A DNA stretch of 64,000 bases, taken from Marinicella sp. Its GTDB lineage: Bacteria > Pseudomonadota > Gammaproteobacteria > Xanthomonadales > Marinicellaceae. Shown piece after piece: positions 265-2,310 of the stretch. The DNA lies in assembly GCA_028284365.1 (NCBI GenBank), contig JANQRW010000025.1:1-64000 (forward strand), read 5' to 3'. The notes beneath the pieces were generated by a model. The model had not been told where the DNA came from. It saw nothing but the letters and a program-made list of their open reading frames with translations, and made no database searches. A program made the position numbers and the translations under genes. Position 1 is the first letter of the stretch; each line of letters opens with the position of its first letter.

Positions 265-876
265 CTAATTTCTGCGATTAAATGACCTGTGTGTTTTTGT
301 TGAAAGCACAACGAGGAAAACAATTAATATGATCAGCCCCATGATGCTTGTCGTAGGAACCTGGGCAGGAACCAAACCAAATAAAAAACTGGCGCTGTTA
401 TTACTTTTATCAGGATCAGTATCAAACTGGCTACTTAATGACCAGCTGATTGTTAATTCCCCAGATGTTATGTTCACTGTATAAAAACCAGCGCATTCAA
501 TGCTTTCGCCCACATCTAGGCTAGGAACTTCCACAAAAAAACCAAACCTGGCTGGGTCGAATGGACTGGGTTCACTGATGGCAACTGCGAAGCCACATCT
601 AGGGTCATCATTGTCATCAGGTAAAAAATCAATCGCTGGTCCACCTTCGACCAGAGGAATTGGGCTTGATATCGCTGTAATTGGTACACCAGCTATTCCT
701 TCAGCAGCAATATCTGGGCCATTGTTGGTTATGGTTACTGTGTATGTCCCTTGTTGACCACCCTGAACGCCATTTTCGATGCCATTGATTTGCATTGAAA
801 GGGCTAGGTCAGCCACACCTGCATGGATTTGAAATGAAATGAGCGAGCTTAAAAAGATGATGAGAGGTGCTTTCAT
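265..876 (-). CDS. Small exported protein with DUF11-like fold and IPTL-like C-terminal anchor
   Basis: A 203-residue protein. Residues 1-19 form a signal peptide ending IHA. Residues about 44-54 (TYTVTITNNGP) and the following beta-rich stretch resemble DUF11/CARDB-type surface domains. The last 31 residues begin VPTTSIMGLIIL, continue as a hydrophobic helix and end in a basic tail (KTHRSFNRRN). That layout matches the IPTL-CTERM class of sorting signals, here with a degenerate first motif. It lies 12 bases downstream of the metalloprotease gene on the same strand, so the two are probably one transcript. The ligand and function are unknown; a surface-attached partner of the protease is a guess. 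Confidence 0.7.
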   Translation of the reverse strand: MKAPLIIFLSSLISFQIHAGVADLALSMQINGIENGVQGGQQGTYTVTITNNGPDIAAEGIAGVPITAISSPIPLVEGGPAIDFLPDDNDDPRCGFAVAISEPSPFDPARFGFFVEVPSLDVGESIECAGFYTVNITSGELTISWSLSSQFDTDPDKSNNSASFLFGLVPAQVPTTSIMGLIILIVFLVVLSTKTHRSFNRRN

Positions 877-888
877 TTTTTCACCAGT

Positions 889-2310
889 TCACTCAAATCC
901 GTTGATAAATATCACGTCAGGACGTGCCCTGAAATTAGATACTACTGGTGATAAATCATCAATCACTTTTGCATTGTTGGCATTGGCTGTTGTACCAATA
1001 GGGGCTCCATCAACCACAACATTTGGGTTCGAAAAATACAATCTTCTGGCGGTGGTTGGGTTGGATGTCGTATTGAATATGGACATGATCGATTTGAATC
1101 GTGAACTTCTGAAGCCAAAGGCATCTGGATAATTGTTGTTGATGACGGCGTTTTCAAAAGCTGCACCGGATTCACCAAGGACATGGTTTGCACCTAAATT
1201 GTGCCCCAGTTCATGGGTGAATGTGTCATCCCATATGGCGCAAAACTCTGTTGTTATTGAGTAGGCTGAACTGTTAAAAGCAGGACCAACATTACAACCA
1301 GGTACAGGAACTTCATCACTGCAGGTTGGATAGGTTTGGACGTATGCCACGCCACATGCGCTGAAAAGTGTAAAATTATTGCCAACAACAGCGACCACCA
1401 CATCAGCTCCCACTAAGTTTCTAGTTATTTGCACAGTGGTGTCATTTTTTAGGTTTCTTAAATCTTGAAATTCTCCATCAACTCCCGAGTATTGAAAACC
1501 AATGTATTGAGCTGTGTGAAATCGGGTGATTCTGGTGTTCATTTGGCTGTTTGTAAATGCTTCATTGGCATGGTTTGTTGCAAACATCATCAAGGTGTCG
1601 ATATCAGCCGTGTCGTCAGGGTCAGCAGGGTTGCCTCCTGCTTCGACCCTGGCTTCCTCAGTCCATAAAATGAGTACATCTATGTTGGTGGTGTTTGAAT
1701 TTCTTGTTTCATTTATATCATAGGCCGTTTTGTTAAATGATTTGATTGTTCCGATGCTGGTTTGGTTATCGGAAAAGGGCTCACCCTCTTTAACCATGTT
1801 TTCGTCAAGGCCAATGGTGTCTGTTGGCGGAAAGAAATTTAAATTAAATTCATCCATCATGTAAGTTGTATTATCTGAAGCCAAGTAAATTCCGTAACGT
1901 GTGTCATTACTGGTTATCAGACCCATCAGTTGCCCCCTGTTAAAAGTAAGCAGCACATCGTATTTATCTGAACTTCCAGACCATTTATAACTTATTTCGT
2001 TTATAGGCGTGCCTGTTGGAATCCAAAACGGAGGGGTACCAGGCGGATGTTCTTCTTCATCATAATATTCATACCCCTCTCGCGGATAAAAACTGTTTTT
2101 TTGAATGGTGACTACATCTTCATTCGGTAATGAAAAAGTTATGGCAGGAGGTCCATCTTGTAAATCACCAAGATTGAGCGAAACCTCATATGAATTTAAA
2201 ATCGTGGGTGGTGGTGATGCTGTTCCAGACGGTTCAATCGATACAAAAAAATCGATCGAGAGGGCCTTAAATGCATGGGCTAAAAAAACAATGGTAACTG
2301 CTATTTTCAA
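889..2310 (-). CDS. Secreted reprolysin-like zinc metalloprotease with C-terminal GFE tail
   Basis: A 473-residue predicted extracellular protease. The start is TTG (2310-2308), preceded by GGAG seven bases upstream. Residues 1-18 look like a signal peptide. The zinc site is HELGHNLGANH at 366-376, the HExxHxxGxxH pattern of metzincins; a Met-turn candidate (SIMS) lies near 407-410. Six cysteines between about 319 and 357 could form disulfides, as expected outside the cytoplasm. The C terminus ends VIFINGFE, a short tail I associate with exported proteins of some gammaproteobacteria, of unproven role. Family assignment to the M12B-like bacterial reprolysins rests on the motif; the substrate is unknown. 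The next gene on the strand is a small surface-anchored protein. Confidence 0.85.
   Translation of the reverse strand: MKIAVTIVFLAHAFKALSIDFFVSIEPSGTASPPPTILNSYEVSLNLGDLQDGPPAITFSLPNEDVVTIQKNSFYPREGYEYYDEEEHPPGTPPFWIPTGTPINEISYKWSGSSDKYDVLLTFNRGQLMGLITSNDTRYGIYLASDNTTYMMDEFNLNFFPPTDTIGLDENMVKEGEPFSDNQTSIGTIKSFNKTAYDINETRNSNTTNIDVLILWTEEARVEAGGNPADPDDTADIDTLMMFATNHANEAFTNSQMNTRITRFHTAQYIGFQYSGVDGEFQDLRNLKNDTTVQITRNLVGADVVVAVVGNNFTLFSACGVAYVQTYPTCSDEVPVPGCNVGPAFNSSAYSITTEFCAIWDDTFTHELGHNLGANHVLGESGAAFENAVINNNYPDAFGFRSSRFKSIMSIFNTTSNPTTARRLYFSNPNVVVDGAPIGTTANANNAKVIDDLSPVVSNFRARPDVIFINGFE

Follow-up and report, generated by a model that had tools for sequence, protein, structure and literature searches.

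What does it mean that two neighbouring genes, presumably of one operon, end in two different C-terminal tags? The question is raised by a locus within the window, by which we mean the whole stretch of 64,000 nucleotides of Marinicella sp. DNA analysed here (contig JANQRW010000025.1). Its features are the following.

889..2310, minus strand: M12B reprolysin-like metalloprotease of 473 aa, with a TTG start and a signal-peptide-like start as judged by eye
1183..1215, minus strand: zinc-binding motif HELGHNLGANH, residues 366-376 of the protease, from the sequence
892..918, minus strand: GFE tail DVIFINGFE of the protease, from the sequence and motif counts
877..888, minus strand: gap of 12 bases between the protease and DUF11 genes, from the sequence
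265..876, minus strand: small DUF11 protein of 203 aa, with a signal-peptide-like start as judged by eye
268..360, minus strand: IPTL-like tail (VPTTS, helix, basic residues), the last 31 residues of the DUF11 protein, from the sequence

The protease matches Reprolysin_3 (PF13582, E 1.3e-13, 51.9 bits for a cutoff of 22.4) and displays the HExxHxxGxxH motif as HELGHNLGANH, which together place it among the M12B reprolysin-like proteins; H366, E367, H370 and H376 are all kept in the relative L320. Its C-terminus reads ...RARPDVIFINGFE, the last ten residues being PDVIFINGFE. A sequence search of the PDB returned two weak matches only, Atragin (E 0.34) and thymidylate synthase (E 0.75), and a structure predicted from two sequences was unusable (mean pLDDT 35). 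The DUF11 protein (PF01345, E 4.8e-9), encoded 3' of the protease on the same strand, has the C-terminus VPTTSIMGLIILIVFLVVLSTKTHRSFNRRN. An earlier sequence-only reading of this DNA had described a metalloprotease ending in VIFINGFE followed by a gene ending in VPTTS, a helix and a basic tail, and the translated minus-strand frames bear out both endings. It had also pointed to two different C-terminal tags in one presumed operon, an arrangement that turns out to be conserved. The pair is present four times in the genome, at C66 (the window copy), C4, C52 and C21, and the genes at the last three are spaced by fewer than the 12 bases of the window or overlap. Pairs with a GFE-type protease end and a helix-basic DUF11 end were also found in the relatives G400, G375, G370 (twice) and G434, where the protease ends in GFES and GFEQ for the two G370 pairs and in GFETQ for G434. 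Full-length protease homology adjoins DUF11 in G329 and G315 as well, and partial homology in G429, G449 and G350; relatives of the DUF11 protein occur in 15 of the 33 family genomes, several without a neighbouring protease. In the C21 copy (L109, 1892-5017), only the last 108 aa of the protease are left, with an intact tail, and the DUF11 partner follows; upstream lie RHS-like (by eye) and small genes.

Judged by eye, the tail of the DUF11 protein is like the IPTL-CTERM consensus. It resembles the IPTL-CTERM/XrtH system (PF18203, TIGR04177) in its architecture, a V-P-x-x signature, then a helix, then basic residues at the C-terminus, and in the presence of XrtH in the genome; it differs in that PF18203 does not call it, no match being obtained at C66 at E <= 0.001 or at E <= 5. 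PF18203 does match elsewhere in the same genome (C15, 21.6 bits for a cutoff of 20.8), and at E <= 5 it also matches in 7 of 14 control genomes. The midcut-by-XrtH model NF033207 scored the DUF11 tail at 16.7 bits, below its cutoff of 45. Tails of DUF11 homologues begin with VPTTG, VPVNS, VPSLS or VPTFN, and the C52 copy differs, with VSVNN. Exosortase XrtH was recognized in the genome by TIGR04177 (156.3 bits, cutoff 86) and in 32 of the 33 family genomes, in 31 of them above cutoff: the match in G405 is short, partial and under cutoff, and only G292 has none. Since XrtH is present, a known route is available to the DUF11 tail, and its sorting via XrtH appears plausible. Clear IPTL-type tails are seen in the relatives L325, L326, L328, L337, L354 and others (VPTLSxWA, IPTLSTWALLLL); some sit on open frames of more than 3000 codons and possibly belong to giant surface proteins.

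The GFE tail shares nothing with IPTL-CTERM. In the 3.11-Mb genome, FxxGFE followed by TAA, TAG, TGA or TGG gave 21 matches against 2 for the reversed pattern, and at least 16 of the 21 end sizeable ORFs. With the same endings IFxxGFE gave 17 matches and its reverse none; DxxFxxGF[ED], which required no stop, gave 35 and again none reversed. The loosest pattern returned 75 matches, all of which were inspected, against 19 reversed. In 30 distinct ORFs, each 100 codons or longer, the core lies at most five residues from the end, and most remaining loose-pattern matches, in short frames or ordinary proteins, are taken as chance. The GFE tail itself is not a chance pattern. The sequence-only reading would have been refuted if no other exported protein of this genome carried such a tail, which is clearly not the case; the xIFxxGFE endings that it also ascribed to related bacteria are of a kind seen on dozens of unrelated exported proteins in this genome and in relatives.

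The tail has a sharp consensus of 9-10 residues, [SPND]-D-[LIV]-I-F-x-[ND]-G-F-[ED], followed by 0-3 residues. Positions left free in the search pattern are conserved nevertheless, D at -2 in 28 of the 30 ORFs, L/I/V at -1 in 29 and N/D at +3 in 27, and residues upstream of -3 (-14 to -4) display no clear conservation. GFE or GFD are the very last residues in 21 of the 30. The motif also occurs about 12-40 residues from the end (L083, L119, L081 and L134), internally in exported-looking proteins (L098, L096 and L125), and just after the signal peptide of a Lcl_C protein (L114, G000:C31); Legionella Lcl is reported as a T2SS substrate (PMC6617341). In another genome (L054, G297:C13) it directly follows the signal peptide of a DUF1800 protein, and the preceding gene ends in VFGNGFE. 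Tandem doubling of the tail was noticed in L222 (DLIFKNGFESDIIFKDGFE) and L268, among others, and in four genomes two matches start 27-36 bases apart (G365:C3:9229/9262, G308:C1:871659/871695, G343:C1:1302955/1302982 and G429:C106:6085/6112). No curated NCBIfam or Pfam model covered the tail of the window protease and no NCBIfam model covered six tail fragments, in a search that may miss very short models. Literature searches, read to the depth of the top-ranked papers, found none on the tail, and the papers listed for literal tail sequences matched by unrelated words.

Carriers of the motif are many, unrelated and apparently exported. Nearly all bear it at the C-terminus; a position directly behind the signal peptide, or one separating two domains, is rare. 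Among 20 carriers scanned for domains (19 from this genome and one from a relative; 3 gave no match and in 5 the motif is not terminal), M12B, M14, S8, Endonuclease_1, Exo_endo_phos, FG-GAP, beta-propeller, GSDH, Big, cadherin and DUF1501 were recognized. They appear to include both Sec- and Tat-type proteins, the DUF1501 protein of this genome carrying TAT_signal. A scan of named genomes gave at least 115 stretches with a terminal motif match. In 80 of these, a crude heuristic of our own called signal-peptide-like starts in 55 of the 58 ORFs (200 codons or longer) that end in the motif, versus 130 of 235 other ORFs, and an internal membrane segment in 1 of the 58 versus 43 of the 235. Among closed ORFs of 150 codons or more in the 115 listed stretches, the nine-residue motif occurs 87 times, never with more than 12 residues following, and its reverse not once; this placement is partly built in, the stretches having been chosen by terminal match. 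Named sources among the matches listed are Marinicella species, Dokdonella, Pseudofulvimonas and a Rudaea MAG, besides numerous MAGs assigned to Lysobacterales or named only loosely as proteobacterial. Single MAG contigs with tail matches are labelled outside the order, as Sedimenticola (L266), Bacillota (L267) and Planctomycetales (L298); the L267 frame is 13 residues long and probably chance, and L266 is a real-looking ORF of 440 aa.

Does the tail have a partner next door? The IPTL-like neighbour is not a general one: it stands beside 3 of 28 tail genes of this genome (C66, C21 and C79) and 0 of 85 in named loci, in counts by a strict regular expression that overlooks C4 and C52. Such neighbours being rare, the protease/DUF11-type pairing is no general rule for tail genes. 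Across 125 loci (621 ORFs), tail-bearing families apart, the most recurrent family beside tail genes is found at 5 loci only and others at 3-4. A dedicated neighbour gene was thus rejected. A large protein family lies near tail genes at five loci (L144, L234, L235, L268 and L278).

The tail is distributed unevenly. Across 275 further genomes of the class, 11 matches were obtained, one each in 11 genomes, against 5 reversed, which is about chance level. Within the order (398 genomes), it is abundant in parts only. Genomes of the Marinicella family hold 11-80 motif matches each, except G292 with 1 strict match (and 1 reversed). In family f168, four genera have 18-150 and the others 0-2; up to 150 matches were counted in one relative, G550. 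Family f2 shows 0-2, apart from G363 (6), G508 (4) and G559 (3), and f164, f165, f160 and f167 are intermediate. G292 belongs to genus g218 of the Marinicella family and is near-closed in 2 contigs; with no T2SS secretin or XrtH match and one GFE match, it is a natural comparison genome.

Type II secretion was considered across the order, together with XrtH. The Marinicella genome itself holds the T2SS that any T2SS substrate would need, and indeed two of them, a long operon at C31 and a GspC-D-E-F set at C45; in G336 the latter type of set adjoins ftsE/ftsX. The general GspD model TIGR02517 matches above cutoff in 115 of 121 genomes of the order, and G292 alone has no match at all. The others under cutoff are G010, G374 and G383, which have no tails, and G385 and G386, two fragmented assemblies with 38 and 6. 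A profile of seven GspC-D-E-F-type GspD sequences was searched against the 398 genomes of the order; all seven come from tail-bearing genomes, which may favour the association, and presence was set at E <= 1e-140, whereby some fragmented assemblies were scored absent. Within the Marinicella family this profile matches every genome but G292 and G449, the latter fragmentary; in four to six further fragmented assemblies the match is weak or partial. In f168 the GspC-D-E-F secretin is found in 20/20 tail-rich genomes versus 4/105 others. Among 102 genomes of the order outside the Marinicella family, 31 have at least 5 tails, and 27 of these contain it; of the 71 that have fewer, 25 do (odds ratio 12.4, p 1.1e-6, statistics that ignore phylogeny). 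A tree of 46 secretin rows groups those of the f168 tail-rich genomes in a single clade of 19; on it the tail label has to change 7 times, and at least 4 of these changes are forced. Thus f168 amounts to about one event, and the p-values overstate independence.

This secretin is not sufficient, as the f165 g226 genomes mostly have it with only 0-2 tails, nor strictly necessary, as G335 (10 tails) and G369 (6) lack it; G335 has the other, long-operon T2SS. The presence of a GspC PDZ was rejected as a discriminator, a PDZ-like end (by eye) being seen in tail-poor genomes too. Family f2 (genus g252 and others) contains an intermediate secretin class, with profile E of about 1e-128 to 1e-138 and almost no tails.

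Exosortase presence depends on the model used. A provisional view from PF09721, that exosortase does not track the tail, was rejected because this model misses XrtH: it matched in 10 of 19 genomes of the Marinicella family, and TIGR04177 in 18 of the same 19, all but G292. With XrtH missed in 8 of these 18, surveys based on Pfam alone will undercount exosortases. Outside the family, even the insensitive PF09721 detects exosortase in 20 of 31 tail-rich genomes versus 23 of 71 others (odds ratio 3.8, p 0.004). By the same model, at least 5 tails are found in 3/16 genomes with exosortase alone, 10/25 with the secretin alone, 17/27 with both and 1/34 with neither. G292, nearly tail-less and devoid of both T2SS secretin and XrtH, makes XrtH as good a partner candidate as T2SS within the family, and a single genome cannot separate the two. 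The association of the tail with T2SS or with XrtH is a correlation, proof of neither. As to the co-occurrence with a secretion or peptidase gene that the sequence-only reading proposed to look for, tails track both the GspC-D-E-F T2SS and XrtH, and neither is sufficient. Its interpretation is supported in part: of the two sorting routes it suggested, that of the second tag finds XrtH in the genome, and that of the GFE tail has the co-occurrence just described, whereas processing of the GFE tail, surface placement by it and cooperation of the two proteins are suggestions.

The GFE tail is very probably a real targeting-type motif. Its carriers appear to be of both Sec and Tat type and many are enzymes, and tail number tracks the GspC-D-E-F T2SS, which makes this system the best candidate. 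The tail is best read as a short motif, not described before, for export or surface targeting, with the T2SS pathway as its most likely reader. The tail would act on proteins already brought across the inner membrane by Sec or Tat. Its consensus could form a tiny beta-hairpin, with DLIF as one strand, x-N/D-G as the turn and FE as the second strand. As a linear signal it may recruit the folded protein to the GspC-D-E-F T2SS, or hold it at the surface afterwards, and GspC with its PDZ-like end and the N-domains of GspD would be candidate readers. In the window pair, export of the soluble protease would follow this tail-read route, and the DUF11 partner would be held in the membrane by the IPTL-type C-terminal helix and may be cut by XrtH. 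Taken whole, with a portable targeting motif and T2SS recruitment or surface holding, this explanation may in our view equally well prove right or wrong. That type II secretion is the direct reader of the tail is a serious possibility, if short of probable; we estimate that what remains falls mostly to another step of the same surface route. More tentatively still, D-[LIV]-I-F-x-[ND]-G-F-[ED] might be a portable linear signal read directly by T2SS, via the GspC PDZ and/or the GspD N-domains, one code for dozens of folded substrates.

The main rival to T2SS reading is surface retention: the protein would be secreted in an ordinary way and its tail would then bind a surface receptor or matrix protein, perhaps one placed by XrtH. 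XrtH is matched in each of the 32 tail-rich family genomes (in G405 partially, under cutoff) but not in tail-poor G292; the tail-positive G335 and G369, which lack the GspC-D-E-F secretin, have an exosortase match, and the excess of exosortase in tail-rich genomes outside the family points the same way. A docking peptide could, moreover, lie at either end of a protein, internally or in tandem, as this motif does. Yet exosortase without the secretin goes with few tails (the 3 of 16 genomes above), and no receptor family was found; we regard docking as rather unlikely. Alternatively, the tail could be a processing signal, a peptidase or transpeptidase cutting at or near the N/D-G bond and joining the protein to the surface, by analogy with GlyGly-CTERM/rhombosortase and PEP-CTERM/exosortase; the chemical lability of NG and DG bonds would suit this. 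However, the tail has neither a membrane helix nor a basic end, no dedicated enzyme adjoins tail genes at the 125 loci, and with the motif forming the very C-terminus in 21 of 30 ORFs cleavage would remove almost nothing; such processing is improbable. A structural cap or degradation guard with no sorting role, spread by gene-end shuffling, would suit a hairpin-like consensus able to cap beta-rich domains, several carriers being FG-GAP, propeller or Ig-like proteins, but the tail follows unrelated domains after an unconserved stretch (-14 to -4) and tracks whole-genome traits, which makes this the least credible proposal, and a very improbable one.

Among known systems, the T2SS-read tail that we favour comes close to GlyGly-CTERM. 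This short C-terminal signal is carried via a linker by exported enzymes of unrelated kinds, proteases and a DNase among them, and is described as giving membrane association, with export requiring a second signal (PMC13393428). Species with GlyGly-CTERM/rhombosortase are reported generally to have a T2SS as well (PMC3237569). The GFE tail is likewise a short C-terminal signal on unrelated exported enzymes, but it spans about ten residues without the glycine-rich, helix and basic architecture, and it is sometimes N-terminal or internal. The C-terminal signal of the T9SS in Bacteroidetes, also common to many proteins, is described as a conserved beta-sandwich domain (PMC4804311), whereas the GFE tail has only ten residues. 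T2SS recognition is thought, according to PMC7949064, to rest on structural, composite signals, and the nine-residue loop 3 of PelI is reported there to act through GspC and GspD; the Ig fold of VesB carries a graftable PDZ-dependent signal (PMC12369372). With these the tail would share an exposed element thought to be recognized after folding through GspC/GspD. They are, however, loops or domains of single substrates, and GFE is a shared linear motif whose link to T2SS is statistical only.

How the T2SS recognizes folded substrates has been called elusive (PMC7949064) and poorly understood (PMC12369372). If our reading is true, there would be a shared code in a pathway supposed to lack any signal common to its substrates, and a tag on 30 ORFs of one Marinicella genome, with up to 150 matches in G550, would make the recognition question directly testable. 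Even with another reader, the GFE tail would be a secretion or surface tag lying outside the curated models reported in the searches made, and would serve to recognize exported proteins in Marinicella, Dokdonella and related bacteria.
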